Positions 3,001 through 39,077 of a DNA stretch of 64,000 bases are shown piece by piece. Under the pieces are notes generated by a model that saw nothing but the letters and a program-made list of their open reading frames with translations, was not told the origin of the DNA and made no database searches. This stretch comes from Apophysomyces variabilis (lineage: Eukaryota; Mucoromycota; Mucoromycetes; Mucorales; Mucoraceae), in assembly GCA_002749535.1 (NCBI GenBank), contig MZZL01000406.1:297386-361385 (forward strand), written 5' to 3'. The stretch's first letter is position 1. Every line of letters begins with the position of its first letter. Position numbers and translations under genes: made by a program.

Positions 3001-6000
3001 TTAAAGCAGTATTGGATGACTAACTAGGTTAAGGAATAGTATCCTATAACTGAATACTGTGCGTGTCTTTGGCCTACGGAACGCGCCTGGGCGTTCATTG
3101 TTATTGTCTCTCATATACAGAAATACGTGTAAAATATTTGTTGCAGCCATTTTGTCTCGATTCCAGAACATCACCGTACATGATTTTTTCTGACATGTCA
3201 GTACAGCATGTATAGTCGAGCCTTTGTGGCCTTGTGCATCATTTTCTTCGTTCGCTTTCTGCAGATCTCAAGTCTGACATGCTGGACAAATTTGGGATGT
3301 GAGGTATTCGTCTATGAGAAATACAAATGTCGGAGCCTTTCCCATCCATGGTCAACCATAAGCCCATGAAATAACTCTATAGCCTACCTTTCGTCTCCTC
3401 GCTTGTTGCTGTAGTTCCTTGAAAACCGCCTTGGTAGGTGCAGCCTTTTTGCCTTTCATACTGCCAGAAAACCCTCCATTTCCATAGGCGACAATGATCG
3501 GTTCGCTCTTCTCGTCAGATCGATCGTTCGGAGAAAGAGGAACCCATTTCGAATCACCTCGCTTAGGTTCCTTTTGCTTACTGCTTTGATCATACTTCTT
3601 GCTCCCGTACAGCAATCTCTTGACTACTTCACTTCGACCTTTCTGTCGTTGGATATAAGACTTGGAACTTCAATTTGCTGTATCTGAAAACAAAGCCTAA
3701 ATGTTAATACGATTAAACATTAAACAGTTAACAAACGATTAACCTTCGGTCACGGCTAAAAAATTCAGAAATATGCTCATAATGTTGCATACAGTACCGG
3801 ATGGCAGTGATTAAGCTCTCCATGCTGGTTGTCTTCAACGATGGAATGTCGTCAATCAGAGTCTTCACAGCAGGATCGCCCTTCACGTATTTTTCTCGGG
3901 ACCTGGTAGCATGACTGAATCCACAGAGAATAGTACTCTTCGGTTGTCGTTGAACGAACACGATGCTGAGAAGTGCCTGTCCCATCGGCGGCGACGAAAA
4001 TACTTGATACCCCCGGGTCAACACCCCAGATAATCGCATCCTCATACTTCCCTTTTATATTGGAAGGGGTCAAAGGCTTCTTCTTTGGATCGTAAGGAGT
4101 CTTGTACTTTTTAAATATGAATTCGACATCTGTAGCATCCGTTCGTATTTTATCCCTTAAATATCACTGTGAGCCGTCCGAGTGATACACAACTAATTGG
4201 TTTACCAGAAAAGAATTTTCTCGGTTTCAAGACTTTACAGAGTCTTATAACCCATCTTTGACATGTCGAATAGTTGGAAGTATTCTTTTCTGACTTCCGT
4301 GGCTTTGATAGGCGACATGGTGGAGCGTAAAGCAGCTTTCCACATCAGACGGCCGAGCGCCTGGTTATCAATCGTGACATGACGCATCTGCATGTTATAC
4401 ACGGGTGCCATTGTGAACCTTCTTGCGCCACGGGGATCAGTGTATTTTTCTGGTTTAAATGTCCCATTGTCAATAGCCTCTCCCGTTTCCTTGATGAAAT
4501 TCTGTAATCTCGATATGACAGACTTTGGTAAACGGTCAAACTTCTTTGTGAGAAACAGTTCCTTTCTTCGTCGGATAGCTATTCTGACAACAACTTCCAG
4601 GCTCTTCGTTAAACGCTTTGGCAAGTTTACATCGCCAAGAATCTGTATGACAATTACACAATAGAAGCTCAAATAAGTTTTAGTTACCTCTTTTACCATT
4701 CGATGTACGTATCCGCTGGATACATATTTTTGGGACGTTGTCTCTGTGATAAGCACTTTTTGTTCCAGTCGCCTAAGTACTTTAAAAAGCCACGGAAAGA
4801 ACAGATATTGTTCAGCGTTTAGCTTCTCCTCGTCAATGAAAATAACACCGATGAAATTTTTAAGAGACTCTACACAAGTCTCGACGTACGCACGATTTTC
4901 TTTGTTATCTGTATAGCTGTAGGCCATCGTGCCTCGGTGCCGCAAGCCTGCTTGTATATAAATTCTGCCAGAATCTTTCGGTCTTGCACCAATCCTTTCC
5001 ATCGAAAAAGTTTGTCGTCTTGATCAGACATACACACTAAAAGGTATTGAATGGTTTTCGGTTCGAAATTGGCTGTTATATGGTTTTTGATCGATTCTTC
5101 GTACTCTTTTGCAGCGGTAGAAACTATTGTCATATACCCTTGCGATCTGCACTTTTCTTCATCAAACTCAGGAATCGAAGTTTTGAAATTTGCGTATACT
5201 TCCTGGAGATCATCATCTGCAGACTTCCCTTTACCGGCAATCAACGAAAATAAACGGTAACAGAGATCATGAGTGATCGGTGGAATGCCACGGTTTTCAG
5301 ATAACAGCCTGACAAAAAAGCAGTTTGCGAGAAGCGATCCAGCATAGGTAATATCCCAAACGTGTTTGACGACTTCTTCAATTGCTTCTATAAACTTCAC
5401 TGATCGACATGTGTTTGTCAGTGACCTCTTGATTACGCTGGTTCGTTTGAAATTTTTTGGAGCCTTCCTTTTCTCAGTCGGATTCATGCAAAGCGTACTT
5501 GTGCTTCGTTCATGATCTGTCTTGCCGCAAGTGCTGCATCGTATTTCTTTCCCAGATTCAAGCATTGTACTCTTTTTTTCCGCTTGCAATTTCGCTTTCG
5601 CCTCGTACTTTTCGCTCCGCTTTGCATAGGCTTTTTGGGCTTTAAGAAACACTTTTGACTTGCTACTTGTCAAAGGGGCTGAAGGGAATCCGCACTTGAG
5701 CTGGGATGACCTGAAGGGGCTGTGTTCAAGTTAAGGACCAAAAAATTAAAATTTTAAGATACAGTACTTGGCTCCGAGTCATTCGCTTGATTTTTCATAC
5801 TTCGTTTTCTTTTAGGTGGAGGAAGCGGTTGGAAATCATCATCAGAGTCGAACGTGGCCTTTTCTTTTCCCTTCAAACTTCTTGGTTTTTCTTTGGAAGA
5901 ATTAGCCTGAGTAGAGACTATGCTTGAGCTGGGAAGGGTTGAAGGGCCTATCTTCAAGTTAAGAATCACAAAACAACATTCAATGTTCAGTACCTGGCTC

Positions 6001-6132
6001 GGAGTCAGTCATTTGCATCTTCATATTTAATTTTCCTTTGGGTGGAAGAAGTTGTTGGAAATCATCATCCGACTGCATATCTGCAGACGTAGATGCTTGT
6101 GGTTTTTTCTTTCTCTTGTTGCGGGAAGCCAT
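3001..6132 (-). pseudogene. Fanzor-like (eukaryotic TnpB/OMEGA) RuvC nuclease, degraded
   Basis: Fanzors are RNA-guided DNA nucleases carried by eukaryotic transposons and viruses. Reading from 6,132: a basic N-terminus (MASRNKRKKK), two copies of an acidic-basic exon (DDDFQ..PPK.K..MK), and a zinc-knuckle-like C-x2-C..H..C stretch (CSTCGKTDHERSTSTLC). A long helical region follows, then RuvC-I with the catalytic Asp in WGVDPGVSSIFVAAD (about 4,015). An RuvC-II-like segment IVAYGNGGFSG (about 3,480) precedes DEYLTSQICPAC (about 3,310), then a second cysteine pair CQKKSC and RuvC-III in FWNRDKMAATNI (about 3,155). GT-AG introns fit at 5,948-5,993, 5,710-5,767, about 4,157-4,241 and 3,312-3,356, plus one near 4,640-4,690. 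Lesions: a TGA at 3,268-3,270 between the two zinc-finger halves, and frame changes near 5,680, 4,925, 3,932 and 3,665. The gene is therefore probably dead or badly assembled. The family call rests on motif order and is strong. Confidence 0.85.
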
Positions 6133-8092
6133 AAAGTGAGTGGGAAAAAAAAGAGAAGGAAGAAAGAAGCGAAAAACCAAGAGAGGAATCAAGATTTTAC
6201 GTGATGTGACGCTTTCTAGTAAATGCAATATGTTTGACGACAATTGATATACCAATGTCCCTGCGTCATCCATGCATCATTCATGCTCGCTCTATTGATC
6301 AGTTAGGTCTATAAAATATCGAATTACGTGTATCAAATAGTAATAATAAAGAGAGACAGATGATAACTGTTGCTACTTTTAGACCATCTTTATTTCATGC
6401 TATTCTGTGGAATCAAGCAGATCAGAAAGGTGACAGCAGGCTTTGTGTATGTGGAAGATCAGCAGTTCCAATCAATACTTTGAATTCCCAATTACAGATG
6501 AGAATGATTGCTGAAGAAGAAGAGGTCATTAGCAAGAGAGAGGATGATTGAAGAAGATATGATTAAAAAGCCAAGCTGGACTGGTGCTGAGTCTCGATTT
6601 AAATCACTGCTTCCATGTTACATGGCCTTATGGCAAGATGAATCAGGCCCTAGTTTTCTAGTATAATCATAGCTTTTTTTATTCTATCATACAAAGCCTT
6701 TCCCCTGCTTTTTCTCTGTTTTCTTGCTTTTCACTTTTATTTGTTGACGTCTTGGTCTTTTCTCTTGCGTTTCCTTCTTTCCTACAAAAGACTCTCCATT
6801 TCTATTCTTTTCTTTTTCCCTTATACTTTATAAAAACTACTAATTAACCATTACCTCAACATCTTTGTTGTATAAAATCCGTCTTTTTTACAAAATCATA
6901 TACACTTTCCAAACTTTTTGATCAGTGCCATTGCCTTATATGATCATTTCGACAACTACCTTTCGTATGAACAGACTACAAACGCCATTACTTACCGCTT
7001 GCCAAAGTAAACTGTGATCATTAGCTTATCGGTTATCTTGTGCAAGGGGTTACTACCAGTAGCTACCCGCTGACGCTGAGAGTATATAGTACCATTAAGA
7101 GTAGAGGTGAACCAAGTTTAGTTTATGCCCATCTCGAATTCAGATCGAAGAGGAAAGGAGTGATGGTTGCAGTTAACTGAATTTTGTTTGCCATATGAAT
7201 AAGCGGTCTTCCGTACGACCTTGAAAACATCACTAAGCATTCCTACTTTCAGTGAATCTTCCCTACTTTAAGTGAATCCTGCTATCATAGTGCAATGCCA
7301 TACATTACTGGTCTAGAAGAGACCTCAGGCAGGACATTAGCAGGTGGGCATGGTGTAATCGAATGCATGGAAGATCGAGATGTAGCTGTAGAATCCGTTG
7401 ATATACGAGGAGTCATACGATGCATGGGTGGTGGATATGCAATGGCAAGGGAGAATCAAACAACATGGACATAAAATGGCACCAGGAGGTACTAAGGATG
7501 GATATGGAACGACATTTGGAGGCAAACATGATGAATATGTACTGGTGTAATGCGCTAAAGAAGCTGGACATGGAAGGATAGAAGGAAGTCGATACATAGG
7601 AATACAAATACTATGGGCTGCAAAGGATTGTATTGATGAGGATTAACGAATTGTATCTGGTCCATATGAGGAGGCACAGATTTTGAAGAATGTCTAGCCA
7701 AGATTGGTGGAAATCGAACCATACTTACTGGTTGTGACGAAGGGACATTATCCACATAGAGATTATTGTTCAATTATCTTCAGAGCAACTGTTAAGGTTT
7801 GCAGGAATGATAAATAAGAAGCAGACCTGTATAGGAAAGCAGATCCGAAAAAAAAAAGATAACAATAACAATGTGGCTTTCAGGAACACTGAAAGATTCT
7901 TTTTTACCGATAGGATGATTTTAAGGCTTATCAAATCAGATCCGAAAATTACACTTTCTTTGCCTTTAGCTTGGTACTTCAACATATAAGCAAGGTATTC
8001 GTGTCTGTATAGCCCAGGTAGACCCCGGACCCCCAAGGATGCAGTGAATCAAGTCCCGGCTCTATCAAATTGCTTTGACTAAGATAATCATT
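6133..8092. other. Intergenic, with weak coding traces
   Basis: No gene could be supported. On the minus strand, 7,330-8,036 holds overlapping open frames that read like a Pro/Tyr-rich tail split over two frames; these may be a decayed gene or chance. The rest is AT-rich without visible structure. Confidence 0.4.
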
Positions 8093-8500
8093 GGCTCGGC
8101 CCTTTGGGCCTCGCTTTCTTTTCACAGATTATCACAAAAAGACACAGTGTGTATATGTGAATATGTGTGCGTGTATGTCCGTACGTGCACGCGTCTCTCG
8201 AAGAATTGGACTCGGCCCTTTAGGCCTCGCTTTCTTTACAGCGATTAAACCGAAAAAGAGAGTGTGTGTATAAGTGCCTCTCCAAAAACTTGGTCAAGAA
8301 AGAAACTGGTGGACTAATTACAGCGCGTTTATGACAGGTGTGACGGAAGTACCCCTCGTGTAACGTACCTCGAAAAATTCATTGCAACCCTTTCAGGTCT
8401 TGCAATTGAAAAGCAAAAGACAGAGTGTATATGTCAGTGAGTATATGCACGTTTCTTTGCAAGAAGTCGGCTCGACCCTTCGGGCCTCGCTTTCTTTCAG
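8093..8500. repeat. Spaced repeat with GGCCC-TTT-GGGCC hairpin core
   Basis: A motif close to CTCGGCCCTTTGGGCCTCGC, followed by TTTCTTT, occurs at about 8,095, 8,211 and 8,470, with a weaker version near 8,384. The core is self-complementary around three or four bases, so each copy could fold into a short hairpin. Each is followed by a stretch of Lys-codon-like A-rich sequence and a GTGT-rich run (AGTGTGTATATGT). Spacing is irregular (about 117, 173 and 86 bp). I do not recognise the family. Confidence 0.65.
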
Positions 8501-8829: not shown

Positions 8830-10586
8830 TTATGCAGTTTTTCTTGGACTGAAGCTCAACAGACAGCCATCCGTGGGATAGGTGGTTGCGAATAGAGATA
8901 TGTGATCGCTTTTATCTGTGCGGTGATGGATCCAATCCAGCTGGAGACATGCTTGGGCAATGGTTGACATTAAGTGCATAATTGCATATTCCTTGCCGAT
9001 ACAATGATGCGGACCAAGACCAAAGCATAAAAAGTTTTGGGGATGCTTCTCGGCTATACCATCAGGTCCCCAGCGATCAGGATCAAATTTATCTTGATCT
9101 GGATAGGCGTTCGGGTCGTGGAGACTGGGGTAGGTGGTAGGGATAATCATTGCTACATAGGAAGCCTCAATTTAGCCAGACTGTTGCTATTTTATGGTTC
9201 AGTGCTCTGTGACTTACAGTTTTTGGGTACGGTATAATAGTCAGTAATTGGCCAATCTTTGATTGTTCGATATGGAACTGAAAAAGAAACAAAAGATCGT
9301 ATGCATAAGTAACACTATGATCACCTCGCATTTAGTTGTCCACGTACCCATCAACACGGGAGGACGTAGTCGGAGGATTTCCTTGACTACCTGGCGTAAG
9401 TAGAGAGATTTATCCATTCGTTCCAACGTGATGTCCTTTGTATCAAGCGTAGCCTGCTCCTGACGTACTTTTTCAAGAACATCGGGATGATCTGCCAGGA
9501 GTTGGAATGCCCAAGTTAGAGCTGAGGAAGTGGCATCCTGACTTGCAAACAGAAAGGTGATGATAGTTAATGCGATCTCACGGTCTGTAAAGCTCCGTGG
9601 TGCAGGCTTTTTCAGTCGCTCTGCTTCTTCTTCGGCCTCCTTCATGGACACCAGCCATGCATCCATTAAGCAGGTGATCTCACCTCCGTTTGCCATTCGC
9701 TCACGGCCATCTTTTACACTGGCCAAAAACCATTTGACGATGAACTTTCGTGACTGAATAGCTTTATATACATTGGTCCCTGGGAGTGGGATCGGGAAAT
9801 TGACCAACTCCAACGCAGCCGTAATGTTGTTGTATTCCTCGTAAATTTGATGGACCACTGAATCTGACATGAAGTTACCAATGAACACCCGCAGGGAGGA
9901 ATCAAGGTTCAGATATCGAAATTGCCATTGGTACTCTTCGACCTTGCCATTGAGCGCCAGCCACTGCGCAAAATGTTTCTGGTAGACTTTTTGCTGGATA
10001 GGGAGGTAAGTCCTAAGAAATGAAGTTGATCAGATGATCATGCGCAAGGAGACCGACAATATTTCTCGTACCCAAGCGCTTTTCTTTGGAACAAGTGATT
10101 GAGACCTTTGCGGTATACTCTGTGGGCTTTGCCTTGCAAGAATACCCAATTATCAGGACAAAGGATATATTTCATCGAATCTACAACAGCAGGTTCCACG
10201 TATTCATGAGGCGCGTTCAAAACCTTACGGCTTAATTCACATGTTGATGCAATCACGATAAATCTTGGTGATAGATTTCGCTTAGAAGAAAGAGTTTCAT
10301 CGAACTGCTATTGCCCATACCTGTTGAATACACTAACACAAGAAAGTTCACCACTCTCCCACTTGTCGTGATATTTTTCGAATGTAGGGCACATGGAATC
10401 CATCATCGAGCCAATGATAGGGATTTTGAAGGATGGGCCAGGTAAAGGACCCTTTTTCCGGCGATAATCCAGCTGCTCGTATACGAGTAAACCGAGAATA
10501 GCAGTAGCCACGCAGCCCCAAGCAGGAACTTTAGAAGGCTTCGATAAATGAAGCCAATCCAAGGCCATTTGAGCTGATTCTGCCAA
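8830..10586 (-). CDS. ERG5: Sterol C-22 desaturase, cytochrome P450 CYP61 (ERG5)
   Basis: Introduces the C22-C23 double bond in the sterol side chain, a late step of ergosterol synthesis at the endoplasmic reticulum. Five exons fit: 10586-10321, 10263-10072, 10012-9348, 9277-9218 and 9152-8830, giving 501 residues, the usual size. An N-terminal hydrophobic helix (VPAWGCVATAILGLLVY) serves as membrane anchor, followed by the Pro-rich hinge GPLPGPSFKIPIIGS. The I-helix shows FLFASQDATSSA, the ExxR motif is EILR in VVKEILRLRPP, and the haem-binding loop is FGLGPHHCIGKEYA with the Cys ligand. IVIAST after the first intron, VPYRTIKDWPI and TVPK are typical of CYP61 rather than CYP51. The reading frame is intact. 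It is read in the same direction as the other minus-strand genes around it, but I see no functional cluster. Confidence 0.93.
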
Positions 10587-19008: not shown

Positions 19009-21012
19009 TATTGGTTATTCTGTGGTTCTCCCATTCTCCCCGTTTTCTTTTTCTTATTTCTTAGTATTACTATAACTTTACTCACTTAAAAAGGAAAAAC
19101 AGAATAATACATAGCTCTTTTGATTCTTTGGGCTGGATCCAAAAAGAAAAGCAAAAGCAATGGAATCAATGCATCAACAGACAAGATACATACATAATGC
19201 ACATATACATGTACACATATATTATGCATGGGGAACAATGAGATGGACTCCGTATTCTTCTTTTCTGTCCCTCTTTGTCTCTCCTACCTAAATGGTTAAT
19301 TGTTGCAGTGTTGCTGCCACTTTTCAGCATAACGTGGTCACCTGCCTCGGGCAACAATCGATGATGCTACCCGCTTGTCTCCTTCTGCTTCTCCTTCTGC
19401 TAACCCCCCTTTCTTTGTGTACTCTTTTTTTTTCATCGCTCTATGTCTCCTTTCTAAATGCCTGTGAGCTTTCCTAAAATTATTTTGACAAAACAATGAT
19501 CATCACTGGCAGAATACAGCTTGCCCAATATATAGAATTCTATGGAACAGAAAGGAGAAAACGATTCAAATACTAACTTGAGTACCATCCTATCTATCGC
19601 CCATCTATATTTAAAAAAAAGAGAACCTCTTTTTCTTTCTTTATTTACTTTAACATTTCCCTTCTCCCTCTTTTCTATAAAACAAACAAAGATATCAGAC
19701 GACTTTAAACTTTAGCAGCATGAAACGGAAAATTGTACTACGTTGAAGAAAAAGGGGGGCGGAGAGAAGGAAAGAGGAGTCTCTTCAAAGATCGGCAAAA
19801 CAAAGTTCAGAGGCGTTTTGTTATTCCAATGTCCTTACTTTCTATACAGAAAAAGTGAATCTTCTACGGGAGAGAACAAACATCATCAGGCATTACTCTT
19901 TTTAGATAACTCTTTGACTGCACCCATCTCAACCCCTTTCCCCCTTCCTTCCGTTGCTCTCTGAGTCGCTTTTATAATTCGGTCTACTGTTCTTTTTCTT
20001 GTGTAATGTTGTGGGGCAACCAAGAGAAATAAAGTTATTTAATCAGCCAATAAGATATTAAACCCAAACTGTGATTTATCTTTATAGAAGGTTATTTTGT
20101 TTTGCTCATCTCTAACTGCAGGAGAAGAATAACGAAAGAGAGCAAGAAAGAGAGAGAGAAGGGGGACGGGTTGGTCAATGGGGAAGTTTGACAAGTCAAT
20201 AACATAAAGAGTACATTGGCAAATGTAAGTAAAACCTTATCAAGACAATGGAGACATAATAAAGAAAATGCGAGTTTAACTCTGTTTTTTTATTACAGTT
20301 TTTTTCCTTTCAAGATATGTGCGTATCGAATCCATTTTTTCGGAGGTGAAGTCGGAGTTCAAGTGCGTGTGGAATGATGTATGGTATGTGTGTGTTGGTG
20401 TGTGTGTATTTTGAGTGTGTGCATGCTAAGCTTTTTTATCCAAATGAAAGCAAAAAAACGAGGAGGGAGCAAAAGAAGCTAATAGGAAGAAATGGGCATA
20501 TACAAAAAGAAAATGGGCAGGGGCAAGAGAGAAAATGAAAAGCAAAAAGAAAGCAAAATAAAAAAGAAAAAGCAAGAGAAAAAAATTATAGAAAAGATCA
20601 GAAAAAGAGAAATTATAATAAAAGAGTTATCAAACATAAACTGGTCCGAGATGAACAACAATGATAATAATAAGAGTCAATGCTAGAAAGCGGGACGGAG
20701 AAAAGGGAAGATAGATAGAGAGAGAGAGCGCTGAAGAAAATGGGAAGGGAGGAGCAAATGGGGAAGACGATGCTGCAGCTTTTTTTTTTCTTTTTTTGGT
20801 ATAGGCATAGAAAAAAAACTTAATAATGGGCGCGCAAATAAAGGGCGTAAATAAAAGAGAAAAAGAGAAAAAGGGAAAACAAAAACAAAACAACTCGTCA
20901 GATAAAAAAAGGAAAAGAAAGAGACATAGTAGAAAGTAGAAAGAATTATACACAAACAAAACAGAGAAGAGAAAAGAGGTAAGATGGAATATACACGGAA
21001 GAATATAGTTAG
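19009..21012. other. Long low-complexity intergenic region
   Basis: Lies between two genes that converge here. Polypurine/polypyrimidine stretches dominate, especially 20,480-20,990 (A/G-rich on the plus strand) and a GT-rich run near 20,370-20,425. Open frames here are low-complexity artefacts. It probably carries long 3' untranslated regions. Confidence 0.5.
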
Positions 21013-21723
21013 TTAATAATCTCGGTAGACACTGGAGGAGCTTGGACTAGGATAAGAAGCGTTGGATGATGGAGAAGGAGGAAAAGAGGGAGGAGGCAAC
21101 CGAAGGGGAGGTAAGGAGATGGGCTGTGAACAAGGTTGGGAAGGAGGAGAAGGTGGCAGTTGCTGATGATGGTATGACTGTTGCTGTTGCTGTTGTTGTT
21201 GATGATGATGATAAGAATAATGAGGTGAACGTGGAGGAGAAATAGGTGGAAGAGCTGCAGGATGATGATGGCGTTGATGATGAGAAGGAGTAGGAGGAGC
21301 GTGATGATGATGATGATGATGGTGCTGATGATAATTCTCGGCTGCATGTCGTCCTCGCGTGCGTAACGACTGTCGCTTGTTCTGAAACCAGATCTGCACC
21401 GTACGAGGACTCATACCGAGCTGCTTGCCTAATTCGATACGGAGCTCGGTCGAAGGGAAATAGGTTTGACTGAATACTTTGTTCAAAACCGAGAGTTGCG
21501 ATGGTGAAGCGCGTTTACGCTTAGCCTTGAGAGGCTGTGGATAATGAGTAGGTTGGAACATAGCGGATGCATGACTCGTTGGCGAGGTAGGTGAAGGAAG
21601 CGAATCATTGCTTGAAACAGGAGAGGCCAACAGACCGTTCACGTCGAGAACAGACGAAGATGCTTTAAGAGGAAGCGTAAAGATATCCGAAATTGGAGGC
21701 AGAGTACAAGTAGACGACTTCAT
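21013..21723 (-). CDS. Homeobox transcription factor
   Basis: A single-exon DNA-binding regulator. The homeodomain starts near KRKRASPSQLSVLNKVF and ends with recognition helix SPRTVQIWFQNKRQSLR, which has the invariant Trp, Phe, Asn and Arg. It is of the typical 60-residue kind, without a TALE insertion. N-terminal to it is a Ser/Thr/Pro-rich region; C-terminal are His, Gln and Pro runs (eight or more His, eight Gln), probably disordered activation segments. I chose Met at 21,723 because upstream sequence contains a plausible 3' splice site (TTACTTGCAG) and a Lys-rich low-complexity frame; the frame is open to 21,864, so a longer start is possible. Target genes cannot be inferred. Confidence 0.85.
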   Translation of the reverse strand: MKSSTCTLPPISDIFTLPLKASSSVLDVNGLLASPVSSNDSLPSPTSPTSHASAMFQPTHYPQPLKAKRKRASPSQLSVLNKVFSQTYFPSTELRIELGKQLGMSPRTVQIWFQNKRQSLRTRGRHAAENYHQHHHHHHHHAPPTPSHHQRHHHPAALPPISPPRSPHYSYHHHQQQQQQQQSYHHQQLPPSPPSQPCSQPISLPPLRLPPPSFPPSPSSNASYPSPSSSSVYRDY

Positions 21724-22162
21724 GCTGGATCTTTTTTTTTTTGGTTTCTGTTCGGTTCGGTTGCCTGCAAGTAAGAACGTTTTCTTTTCTTTTTTTTTCT
21801 CTTTTGGGTACTTTGTCGGTTTGTTGTAGCCGATGAGTGAAAGTTTGACTTTTTCCTTTTCCAAATAGAAGGAGAAGAAAGAAGAAGACAGAGTGAGTAT
21901 ATGTAATTGTCAGTAAATGGATCCTTTATATATATAAGTCATATTATCAGAAATGGTTAGTCCTTTCTGTTTTCAATCAATAACATCAAGCATATTATTA
22001 TTGACAAGGCTTTTTTTTCATCCTGCTTTGTTCCTTAATCCCCCTTTTTCATATATTGAAAATAGGAGGTATATTTTTCCGTTGTGGACAGTAACAGAGA
22101 CATGAATAAAGAAATAAAGAAAGGGGAAAAAACGGATTGTCAGTGAACAGACACCAACCAAT

Positions 22163-23632
22163 TTACATGTCTTCTGTAGCGTATCCGTGTGCTTCCCTTG
22201 CTCTGGATTTTCGCTGATTTTGTCGTAATAAGAATTCATCTTCGTAACCATTGGATCGATCCACACCATCCCAACGGTAACCAGGTGGAATCATAAATCG
22301 ATTAGGTTTCCATGGTCCTTTGTAAGTAGGTCTTGAAGGGCCTTTATCCTTTCCTTTCTTGCTGCTTTTCTTCTATATAATGATGTAAGACACATGTCAA
22401 CAAAAAAAAAGTAGATGACAGATCTCTCCTTTTTTCCCAGGAAGAAAAAAAGAAGGACTTACCGTCAAGAAACTCGCAGCAGGATCAGCCCATCGATGTT
22501 GCTCTTTCAATTGTTCATTATATTCAACGTCATCTGCATATCTATTACAATCATTGTATTAACTTCATCTCCCAAAAATAATAAAAAAAAGTTGCATCCT
22601 CCCTCTATCTCTCTATTTCCCCCCGGAAACTCCGGGATCTTCATCCTGCTATACACTGATCTCTATTTTCCTTTCTCTCTCGCCCTCTGTCTCTTTCTTG
22701 CTGTGTCTATCTCTGCTTTGCCAATGAGGAACGGATTTACACACACATACGTACACAAGACCATTCCTCTCCCCCCCCCCCAAAAAAAAATTGGTCTCTC
22801 CACCCAAGACCCTACTCCTTTCTTTCATAGCCTTGAAGGTTGTTGAACTAGCTAGGCTTTCATACCTTGCTAATGGTTTATCTTTTTCCTCCTTAAGTCT
22901 TTGCTTTTCGGCTTCCACTTCATTTCGTTGAACTAACCCCTTTCCCCATTCCATCCGCCTTTCTTCTCGCTCAATGGCTTCCTTTTTTGCTCTGGCCTCC
23001 TCGGCTCGTTTGATTTTCGGATCATATTTACGTCCGGTCACATCACGGTAGACAGATTCCTCCTTCCTTGTATCTCGTAATCGTATCATTTCTTCTCGCT
23101 CTCGCTCTCGTGCGCGTTCGGCCTCTTGCCGAATTTCTTCCTTCGTCAATAGCCCTGCCTTCTGTCCACTCGACATTCGCACTTCTTTCTCTCCTGCTCC
23201 TCTGTCCCCCTTCTCCTCCACAGTCTCCGCTACGACAACTGGTTTTTCATCTTCTGCTTCCTCCTCCTCCACATACCCCTGTTGGGTGACTCCTTCTTGC
23301 ACAACTTCCCAACCGTCGGTTCGCCCTCGAAACACTCCTTTGCTGTTGGCAGCCGCTTCGGCCTCTAAACTCTCGTCGCGTCTTTTCTTGGCTATCAGTT
23401 CGTCCTCTCCATAAGGATCTTTCATAGGTTTCCATCCCCATTCGTCTTCATCCACAATACCGATGTTGCCTTTACGGATCTTCTTGGCACTTGATTTCTT
23501 CTTTTTCTTTTTTTTGCCGTCATCTCCTCCACTAAGGTATTTGTCCGCAATATACTTTTTAGTCGCTTCATCTCCTGAACCCTTGACCAAGTATTTTTGT
23601 CTGAAGATCTCTTCCCGCTCGGCTTGTTCCAT
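22163..23632 (-). CDS. BUD13: Bud13/Cwc26, RES splicing complex subunit
   Basis: Bud13 is the scaffold of the RES (retention and splicing) complex, with Snu17 and Pml1, in the activated spliceosome. Exons 23632-22866, 22541-22463 and 22372-22163 join in frame (351 residues). Family landmarks: [12 protein letters not shown] near the N-terminus; the central [39 protein letters not shown]; a Lys/Glu-rich coiled coil; and the C-terminal core [10 protein letters not shown], then [20 protein letters not shown] followed by [10 protein letters not shown]. The protein ends AHGYATEDM. The start is the first Met in the frame. It is divergent from the small gene at 24,046 with a 413-bp shared upstream region. 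Confidence 0.92.
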
Positions 23633-24045
23633 AGCCTCTTTTTTTTTTCTACTTTACTTGAATCAAGCGATCCCTTTTGTTCCGTCCAGCTTATTTTTTT
23701 TTTTTTTACTCTTTGAGTGGAAGCGGCGGACATTCATCTAGCCAATCATAGGCTACGCTTTTGACCCACACAATAAGTGAGAGGGTTACAATGCGACATG
23801 TGCGTGTTCAACGTACTGTTTTATGTCTTTGAAAACGCTTTCTTCTTATTATTTTGGGACAATGATAATATAATAATATTTGAGAAGAACTAGAGATCGT
23901 CACGTATATTTTCCCAATTTTACTTTAATAAAATGAAATGAACTGTTGTCTTCATTTAGAAATCTAGAATTCAATGTTTATCTTCTAACCTTCCTCATGC
24001 TATACCCGTTTAAACTTTGTTCCCTCTTTTTTTTGGTTTTATTTT
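23633..24045. other. Shared divergent upstream region
   Basis: 413 bp between Bud13 (minus) and the small spliced gene (plus). T-rich and A-rich runs flank the two start codons; no other signal stands out. Confidence 0.45.
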
Positions 24046-38304: not shown

Positions 38305-39077
38305 CAGTGTTTTTAAAAAGTGAAGTCGCAGGCTCTGAAAATCGATGTCGCCATTTGTTCAGCAATCTTACTTAGTCTCAGACAAGAAAAAAAATTGCGA
38401 ACATGGAGGAGGTCCACTACTGTGTGGTCTACTGTTTGGGTGATGGCTGAAAACATCACTGGGATTTTCATTAATGTTTTTTATTTCTGATTGGTAAGAA
38501 GTTTCCTTTAGTTTCGCTCTTTTGGTTTCGTTTTGGTTTCGCTCCGGTTTCGTTTTGGTTTCGCTCCGGTTTCGTTCGGGTTTCGCTCGGGTTTCGCTCG
38601 GGTTTCGTTCGGGTTTCGCTCCGGTTTCGTTCGGGTTTTGCTCCGGTTTCGCTTTGGGTTCCATCTAGCCATTCGACATTTCCCACAAAATAGTCGTTTT
38701 CAGTCTTTGTCAATTGCGATGTAACAATGTTCATTATGCTGCGGTCAGTAATGATTGCCTTCGACATCAGGTCGGATCCGGGACGCAAATAAAGTGGAAG
38801 GGCGGAGCTGGACATGGGAAACCCGAGCGAAACCCGAGCGAAACCAAAACGAAACCAAAAGAGCGAAACCAAAGAAAACTTCTTACCAATCAGAAATAAA
38901 AAACATTAATGAAAATCCCAGTGATGTTTTCAGCCATCACCCAAACAGTAGACCACACAGTAGTGGACCTCCTCCATGTTCGCAATTTTTTTTCTTGTCT
39001 GAGACTAAGTAAGATTGCTGAACAAATGGCGACATCGATTTTCAGAGCCTGCGACTTCACTTTTTTTAAAAACACTG
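38305..39077. mobile_element. Foldback MITE of Tc1/mariner type
   Basis: 773 bp with terminal inverted repeats of about 255 bp: 38,305-38,560 pairs with 38,822-39,077. Ends read CAGTGTTTTTAAAAAGTGAA and inverse. Inside, short repeats of about 11 bp (GGTTTCG with CTC or GTT between) extend the arms. There is no transposase gene, so it is non-autonomous. About three quarters of the first 36 bases match the ends of the dead mariner at 13,706-15,734 (shared AAAGT.AAGTCGC.GG), so a related transposase probably moved it. A TA duplication is not visible at the edges. Confidence 0.85.

Follow-up and report, generated by a model that had tools for sequence, protein, structure and literature searches.

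A broken Fanzor1 gene in Apophysomyces variabilis, probably carried by a 5'-truncated non-autonomous Helitron

What kind of gene lies in pieces on the minus strand near the start of a 64,000-nucleotide stretch of the Apophysomyces variabilis genome (GenBank GCA_002749535.1, contig MZZL01000406.1, positions 297,386 to 361,385; hereafter the window), and what carried it there? An earlier note, made from the letters of the window, had proposed a spliced Fanzor nuclease locus, and we followed this proposal through the 38.7-Mb genome, in which the window is part of contig C92 (contigs and loci are given below by our C and L numbers). The window contains a dead Fanzor1 copy, part of a repeat that is dispersed through the genome and whose right end is sharp and conserved, and the repeat family of the window copy (fam1) opens with a Helitron 5' end. 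We consider it quite probable that this copy is the cargo of a non-autonomous rolling-circle element, a carrier that had gone unrecognised when the gene itself was correctly named. Papers are cited by their PubMed Central numbers.

The gene starts with an ATG at 6132 and is interrupted by six predicted GT-AG introns of 42-60 nt each; an alternative end of the first of these, at 5948, gives a better frame fit by hand (Table 1). As had been claimed, introns and lesions keep the motif set out of any one frame, the pieces being spread over several, and the motif order of Fanzor/TnpB nucleases can be followed throughout on the minus strand. The span first given, 3001..6132, is right at its start; at its end it runs about 20 nt too far, because the shared element stops at 3021. 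The zinc knuckle of the window copy, CSTCGKTDHERSTSTLC, lies in the long exon and is N-terminal in this family. It is followed by WGVDPG (4028-4011), by YGNGGF in the 3669-3352 frame, by the alternative-glutamate and CPxC region DEYLTSQICPAC (3312-3277), and by NRDKMAATNI in the 3267-3001 frame, and the RuvC-I, alternative-glutamate and RuvC-III motifs (D-E-D) are all still readable. Fanzor1 proteins are described by the signature D-X(125-275)-[TS][TS]XX-C4 finger-RD (PMC3627910). In the paralogue at L019 the blocks of this signature occur in order, as WGVDPG ... LTSQICPVC ... C4 finger ... NRD, and the window copy has the same blocks divided over frames. Further Fanzor signatures are DPG, an alternative glutamate before the zinc finger and a missing canonical RuvC-II glutamate, to which Fanzor1 adds TDG in the WED domain (PMC10711439); the first three are found in this family, in which the L019 counterpart of the IIVAYGNGGF strand aligns to IIIGWGN of GtFz1. 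An intron plus exon 1/2 of the window gene appear to form a tandem duplication of about 227 bp (5695-6072), the exon duplicates being 78% identical over 94 nt and 80% over 51 nt at a spacing of 226-228; it is also present in L014-L018 and L026.

The identity of the gene emerges once a spliced paralogue is used as the query. L019 encodes 816 residues without a stop from the long exon on, the earlier exons lying outside the model, through four introns of 49, 51, 49 and 51 nt, and contains TDG, WGVDPG, the alternative glutamate (DEYLTS-CPxC) and NRD. Against solved structures, this protein matched SpuFz1 (8GKH, E = 3.5e-7) and GtFz1 (9CER, 7e-5), the sole two matches at E up to 10, with best stretches of 83 and 169 residues, respectively, in the catalytic part. 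It matched the Pfam model Cas12f1-like_TNB at 1.5e-5 and 25.5 bits, slightly under the curated cut-off of 26.3, and an NCBIfam search returned no TnpB model for it. A Helicostylum relative, P0002, matched the NCBIfam model guided_TnpB at 2e-6 with 27.3 bits, well under the cut-off of 100, and no Fanzor structure when used alone; a six-sequence profile (A2) found SpuFz1 at 1.1e-5 and GtFz1 at 0.07. In the profile check recommended in the earlier note, the raw window pieces gave nothing over the Pfam cut-off for the Fanzor frames. The Fanzor/TnpB identity is supported by the structure matches, the near-threshold Pfam match of L019 and the guided_TnpB match of P0002, and the suggested search for an intact paralogue ended in one lesion-free copy, L019, among seven compared in its family.

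Two protein searches yielded 13 distinct relatives, from Apophysomyces, Helicostylum, Rhizomucor, Cokeromyces, Mucor and Thamnidium; both searches reach only relatives that have short exact words in common, and the second scored the best 8000 candidates. All of these genera we take to be Mucorales, which fits the lineage specificity that had been suggested. The gene is not a chance assembly of motifs, because one of its exons has 78 matches in the genome, many of them partial, and because L019 reads unbroken through four introns. By its motifs and these matches, the locus is identifiable as a broken Fanzor1 gene, a eukaryotic relative of Cas12. When intact, Fanzor1 of this family would presumably act as an RNA-guided DNA nuclease.

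How did the gene spread? Twenty loci were fetched, and all except L030 fall into three families. Fam1 consists of the window copy (L013), L014-L018, which are 95-98% identical to it, and L026 (84%). Fam2 (L019-L023, L029 and L031) is 66-68% identical to the window, and fam3 (L024, L025, L027, L028 and L032) has short DNA matches only. Beyond 3021 the sequence is unrelated between copies; at the other side, the homology of the window copy has its left edge at 8116, where it abuts another repeat. Four copies keep the right end and start at positions equivalent to 3663 (L038), 3547 (L039), 3528 (L040) and 3550 (L043) of the window. Such loss from the left with an intact right end is the pattern described for Chlamydomonas Helitron-Fanzor elements. 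As further Fanzor pieces lie upstream of L039 on C116, this copy may be interrupted rather than truncated. In L038, near position 895, a Helitron helicase frame is cut short and runs straight on into fam1 Fanzor sequence, of which the 3' part and the right end are present.

The left ends connect fam1 to Helitrons of the same genome. L015, bounded by TCACCC and CTAG, is 5353 bp long and over its first 1.07 kb 82% identical to the 5' region of the Helitron L048; the corresponding values are 82% for L016 and 90% over 1.0 kb for L026. Because the first kilobase or so of fam1 is 82-90% identical to a 5'-TC Helitron end, the window element is most likely a 5'-truncated non-autonomous Helitron carrying a Fanzor. 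The shared 5' end, TCACCCTTTCTC, has unrelated flanks at L048, L051, L052 and C23. L015 and the C91 copy (L026) begin with TCACCC like L048, L051, L052 and L053, which we call Helitrons because Rep blocks and Helitron_like_N domains, carrying stops, follow on their contigs. Among 15 genome matches to the Helitron 5' end, four lie on Fanzor elements: on C94 (L015), on C89 (L016, which lacks its first 14 nt), on C91, and on C37, where the first 17 nt are gone, part of the interior is deleted and the right end is retained. C116 is perhaps a fifth. L015 and the C91 copy stand directly behind a Helitron 3' end (a GGGGGCTTCGCCCCCC hairpin and CTAG), L053 stands behind a similar one, and L016 follows the same 3' end with its own first bases lost. 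The head-to-tail junctions CTAG/TCACCC ahead of L053, L015 and C91 would fit rolling-circle transposition.

Fam2 starts differently, with TCATAATAAAATAGC, which follows ATA, ATA and TTA at L021, L029 and L031, respectively; L019 and L020 share more upstream sequence, so the left end of this family is less certain. Fam2 itself carries an upstream RepHel relic with 35 genome matches, of which those on C85, C122, C79, C65, C66, C93 and C27 are found 0.8-2.1 kb ahead of Helitron_like_N in the same orientation; a block similar to the relic is encoded by L047, L050 and L052. Asymmetric terminal inverted repeats (ATIRs) of the Helitron2 type were looked for by eye at the fam2 ends and were unconvincing. 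At L019 and L021, a short fam2 frame upstream of the Fanzor gene contains a knuckle, CSHCNLTTHSRITSRLC, with the same CX2CX4HX7C spacing as that of the Fanzor, CSTCGGTDHQRRTSKLC. Import of the Fanzor knuckle from a Helitron Rep is not claimed, the motif being absent from the fetched 5' stretches of the Helitrons L047-L053.

In contrast to these left ends, one sharp right end is common to all three families, with unrelated sequence after it. All 27 located right ends finish in TTA (12 fam1 with CTAGTTA, 10 fam2-like and 5 fam3), the search pattern itself having included TTA with one mismatch allowed; in a further copy, L041, the end is eroded. Helitrons terminate at their 3' side in CTRR and have a hairpin at a distance of 10-12 nt from this terminus (PMC5148889), and fam1, where the end is CTAG and the 7-bp hairpin lies 14 nt from its last base, is near-canonical. 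RNAalifold, applied to 26 of the 27 copies (L043, with an internal deletion, was left out), predicted this hairpin, in which three pairs change on both sides. Over the whole predicted structure, 98.3% of the cells pair, compared with a maximum of 73.1% when the alignment is slid by 1-3 columns, and the covariation score was reached by none of 500 shuffles. In the consensus fold, the stems further in (columns 31-92) have no pair that changes on both sides, lie within coding sequence and are not claimed; Rfam gave no match in the window. The RuvC-III motif of the window copy lies about 110-140 nt ahead of the right end, and the unbroken fam1 frame has its stop codon inside the hairpin, 23 nt ahead of the end. 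An omega-RNA may arise from the right end, comprising the hairpin and the overlapping end of the coding sequence.

The most serious alternative to a Helitron carrier is nested insertion, in which a separate Fanzor transposon, equipped with ends of its own, inserted into a Helitron 5' region at a depth of about 1.07 kb, making the association a hitchhiking accident. The abrupt end of the Helitron homology at 7295 would agree with such an event, as would the other left ends of fam2 and fam3 and L017, a fam1 copy without the Helitron part that starts at window position 6965. L048 and L052 (to about 440 bp past the break), however, match the window, L015 and L016 on the left only and not past the right end, and in the remaining copies the right flanks merely differ. 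Moreover, C37 has the Helitron 5' part, the Fanzor and the right end at about 81-83% identity to the window, and L026 has the Helitron 5' part with the first half of the Fanzor at 84%, so the joined unit seems to have multiplied. We therefore regard nested insertion as rather unlikely. Far less credible is mobilisation by the adjacent Tc1/mariner (DDE_3) transposase (2560-1268), as in the described Fanzor-Mariner elements (PMC3627910): it lies on the same strand about 460 bp past the right end, but the shared repeat stops at 3021 and excludes it, transposase-like DNA was found at only one of the 19 other loci (L019, about 3.5 kb past the right end, 68%), and terminal inverted repeats were not seen by eye at the copy ends.

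A Helitron carrier must also be weighed against several observations that do not favour it, L017 among them. In L026 no right end is present within the stretch that was fetched, and other matches to the RepHel relic (e.g., on C107, C76, C62, C89 and C86) have no adjacent Helitron_like_N. Fam3 starts with a 35-bp motif that also terminates other repeats, so its left end is not clearly that of a Helitron. In the Helitron copies with the same 5' end (C27, C93, C79 and C122) the Rep domains are interrupted by stops, so that no working partner was seen, and none of the fetched copies combines an intact RepHel with a Fanzor. A search of 12 joined flank pairs in their own genome found no sequence spanning the junction (a flank match on C112 is not an empty site), and both element ends are consequently placed by copy boundaries; no target-site duplication (TSD) was visible by eye at the copy ends. 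The constant TTA past CTAG in 27 copies is not accounted for by a plain A/T target, and the right ends of fam2 and fam3 are CTTG (TTTG in L046) rather than the canonical CTRR. As for the hairpin, the number of double-change pairs was reached by 413 of the 500 shuffles, the double changes are confined to one clade (fam3, five cells each), and the last 100 nt of the window copy fold no better than shuffles (z = 0.35; -1.87 for L019, -1.16 for L024 and -3.06 for L045). For the protein, an AlphaFold model of P0002 was too poor to show a fold (predicted local distance difference test score 36.2, predicted template modelling score 0.23).

Was the protein nevertheless maintained? Four frame-shifting exon indels set the window copy apart from the column majority of the five long fam1 copies; with a premature stop and an additional frame change besides (Table 1), it is a dead, frame-broken Fanzor1 copy. 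All five long fam1 copies have frame-shifting indels by this count, 2 to 6 each; at 3665 the majority may be the shifted state, in which case L015 and L016 would count one fewer and the other fam1 copies one more. One L014 insertion contains N and looks like an assembly fault, and some one-base indels may likewise be assembly errors. Of the seven fam2 copies, L019 served as the reference and so counts as free of such indels; in each of the remaining six there are 1 to 9. Between fam2 and fam3, nonsynonymous differences per site (pN) amount to 0.239-0.248 and synonymous differences (pS) to 0.772-0.792 over 188-189 codons of the long exon, in four comparisons of fam2 copies that share one fam3 partner. 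Synonymous change between the two families is saturated, and within fam2 pN and pS are comparable in size. The low pN relative to pS between fam2 and fam3 points to past purifying selection. In a scan of the 20 loci, TDG was read in 9 of the 12 fam2 and fam3 copies and in L030; the five long fam1 copies have lost it, with TDA in four, including the window copy, and TDD in one, and no TDG-type motif was readable in L018, L021, L025, L026 and L029. A domesticated or decayed OrfB-like protein with a non-nuclease role, to which the pseudogene state, the lost TDG of fam1 and the lack of a usable folded model could point, is highly improbable: L019 retains the zinc finger and the D-E-D motifs, both of which can still be read in the window copy, fam2 and fam3 diverged under strong constraint, and the alignments with characterised Fanzor1s extend over the catalytic part.

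How might a Fanzor-carrying Helitron work? A Helitron RepHel, supplied in trans, would move the element, and an intact protein would take up the omega-RNA from the right end, its guide being derived from the DNA flanking that end. The guided Fanzor could then cut the matching empty site, upon which the element would be copied back, in the way proposed for TnpB following single-strand (HUH) transposition. The Fanzor right end would be identical to, or overlap, the rolling-circle 3' terminus, with Helitron 5' ends joined onto it. By analogy with TnpB, Fanzors have been suggested to aid the copying of single-strand (HUH) transposons such as Helitrons (PMC10432273). A bolder and distinctly more tentative proposal is that the right end, with omega-RNA scaffold and terminal hairpin, is a portable rolling-circle 3' terminus that serves both as guide-RNA source and as start or stop of Helitron replication, and that has repeatedly been joined to the 5' ends of different Helitrons and other repeats. 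If true, it would explain Fanzor families with a constant 3' part and variable 5' regions, including MCi-2 of Mucor, and would make Fanzor a 'cut-and-copy' helper of eukaryotic HUH elements, like TnpB in bacteria.

Table 1. Features of the Fanzor element in the window
Feature	Position	Strand	Basis or remark
Most likely Fanzor-carrying, 5'-truncated non-autonomous Helitron, window copy	3021..8116	-	long 95-98% stretches common to five other copies
Right terminus ATTCCTTAACCTAG-TTA	3021..3037	-	end located in 27 copies
Right-end hairpin, 7-bp stem; possible omega-RNA stem and/or Helitron 3' hairpin	3038..3058	-	consensus fold and pair counts, 26 copies
Fanzor1 gene, broken, about 7 exons	3044..6132	-	frames and predicted introns; 3' limit inferred from sister-copy frames
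Predicted GT-AG introns	5993-5952 (or to 5948), 5767-5720, 4687-4643, 4205-4156, 3743-3684, 3387-3337	-	prediction only
Long exon with CX2CX4HX7C zinc knuckle	4688..5719	-	frame-shifting indels near 5680 and 4912
Premature stop codon	4235..4237	-	among the lesions of this copy
Exon with WED motif IRTDATDVEF (TDG to TDA) and RuvC-I WGVDPG	3744..4155	-	frameshift near 3926
Exon with strand IIVAYGNGGF, canonical RuvC-II glutamate missing	3388..3683	-	frame change near 3665
Exon with alternative glutamate DEYLTS, C4 zinc finger and RuvC-III NRD	3044..3336	-	frameshift near 3065
Helitron 5'-end region, 5' TC terminus missing here	7295..8116	-	78.6% to Helitron L048 326-1134

Other features of the window lie on both sides of the element. 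Just past it, at 1268-2560 on the minus strand, is an open 430-residue Tc1/mariner-IS630-like transposase frame (DDE_3, 3.1e-29), and the flanks of the truncated copy L040 resemble a Tc1/mariner-type transposase by eye. The motif AATTTGAGGTGTACGTTACACGAGGGGTACTT, present at about 8340-8378, occurs in both orientations a few kilobases apart at C111, C90, C76, C91 and others, which suggests the terminal inverted repeats of a further DNA transposon. Part of a cytochrome P450 gene lies at 9241-10029 on the minus strand (relatives named C-22 sterol desaturase; best named match Rhizopus delemar, 68%), and 8830-9171 has the appearance of its last exon. Strong GC and AT skew marks 20000-24000, with a flip at about 22 kb, and near 21.38-21.40 kb the minus strand reads VQIWFQNK, which we take to be a homeodomain signature. 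A tandem array of 11.8 copies of GGTTTCGCTCG occupies 38524-38653.

A genome with several Fanzor families, a lesion-free copy, related Helitrons and constant right ends provides a test case for the link between Fanzor and HUH elements, and bears on how Cas12-related nucleases spread in eukaryotes. It also offers a concrete reading for a 5'-variable Fanzor family to which no class was assigned in 2013 (MCi-2, below). Among known systems, SpuFz1 (8GKH) and GtFz1 (9CER) align with L019 in the RuvC-III and zinc-finger part, the alternative glutamate included, differing in that only the short stretches given above align. The nuclease core is also shared with TnpB of IS605/IS607, whose RNA is produced at the right end; in contrast to TnpB, the present gene is spliced and larger and has the alternative glutamate, and no TnpA was seen in the element. 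Another Fanzor1, PpFz1, comes from Parasitella parasitica, presumably also one of the Mucorales; since neither of the two structure matches is a chain of that name, PpFz1 is probably not a close relative of L019. It is described as RNA-guided, with ATN as its target-adjacent motif (PMC11423790).

Among described elements, CRe-1/2/3 of Chlamydomonas are non-autonomous Helitron2 elements with Fanzor1 whose 5'-truncated copies keep their 3' ends (PMC3627910). The window element, if a Helitron as proposed, shares with them non-autonomy, Fanzor1 cargo and 5' truncation, but CRe-1/2/3 have Helitron2 ends with ATIRs and TTTT targets, as described in the same source, whereas the 5' end of fam1 is Helitron1-like (TC) with no ATIR pair established. 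MCi-2 of Mucor circinelloides has a constant 3' Fanzor part, several 5' regions and no recognisable terminal inverted repeats. It resembles the present families in its constant 3' part and variable 5' regions, and differs in having TSDs of 11-12 bp, ATAATTNNNN(N) (PMC3627910), where here none is visible by eye and one 5' region is a Helitron end. Among the titles and abstract openings listed in searches of an open-access library, no Helitron1-type Fanzor carrier in Mucorales was found. Helitron2 elements with a Fanzor1 are already on record, as is a Fanzor family of Mucor in which the 3' part stays constant and the 5' part varies (PMC3627910); what is new here is a Helitron1-like 5' end on a Fanzor1 of the Mucorales type, together with three families that combine different left ends with one right end.

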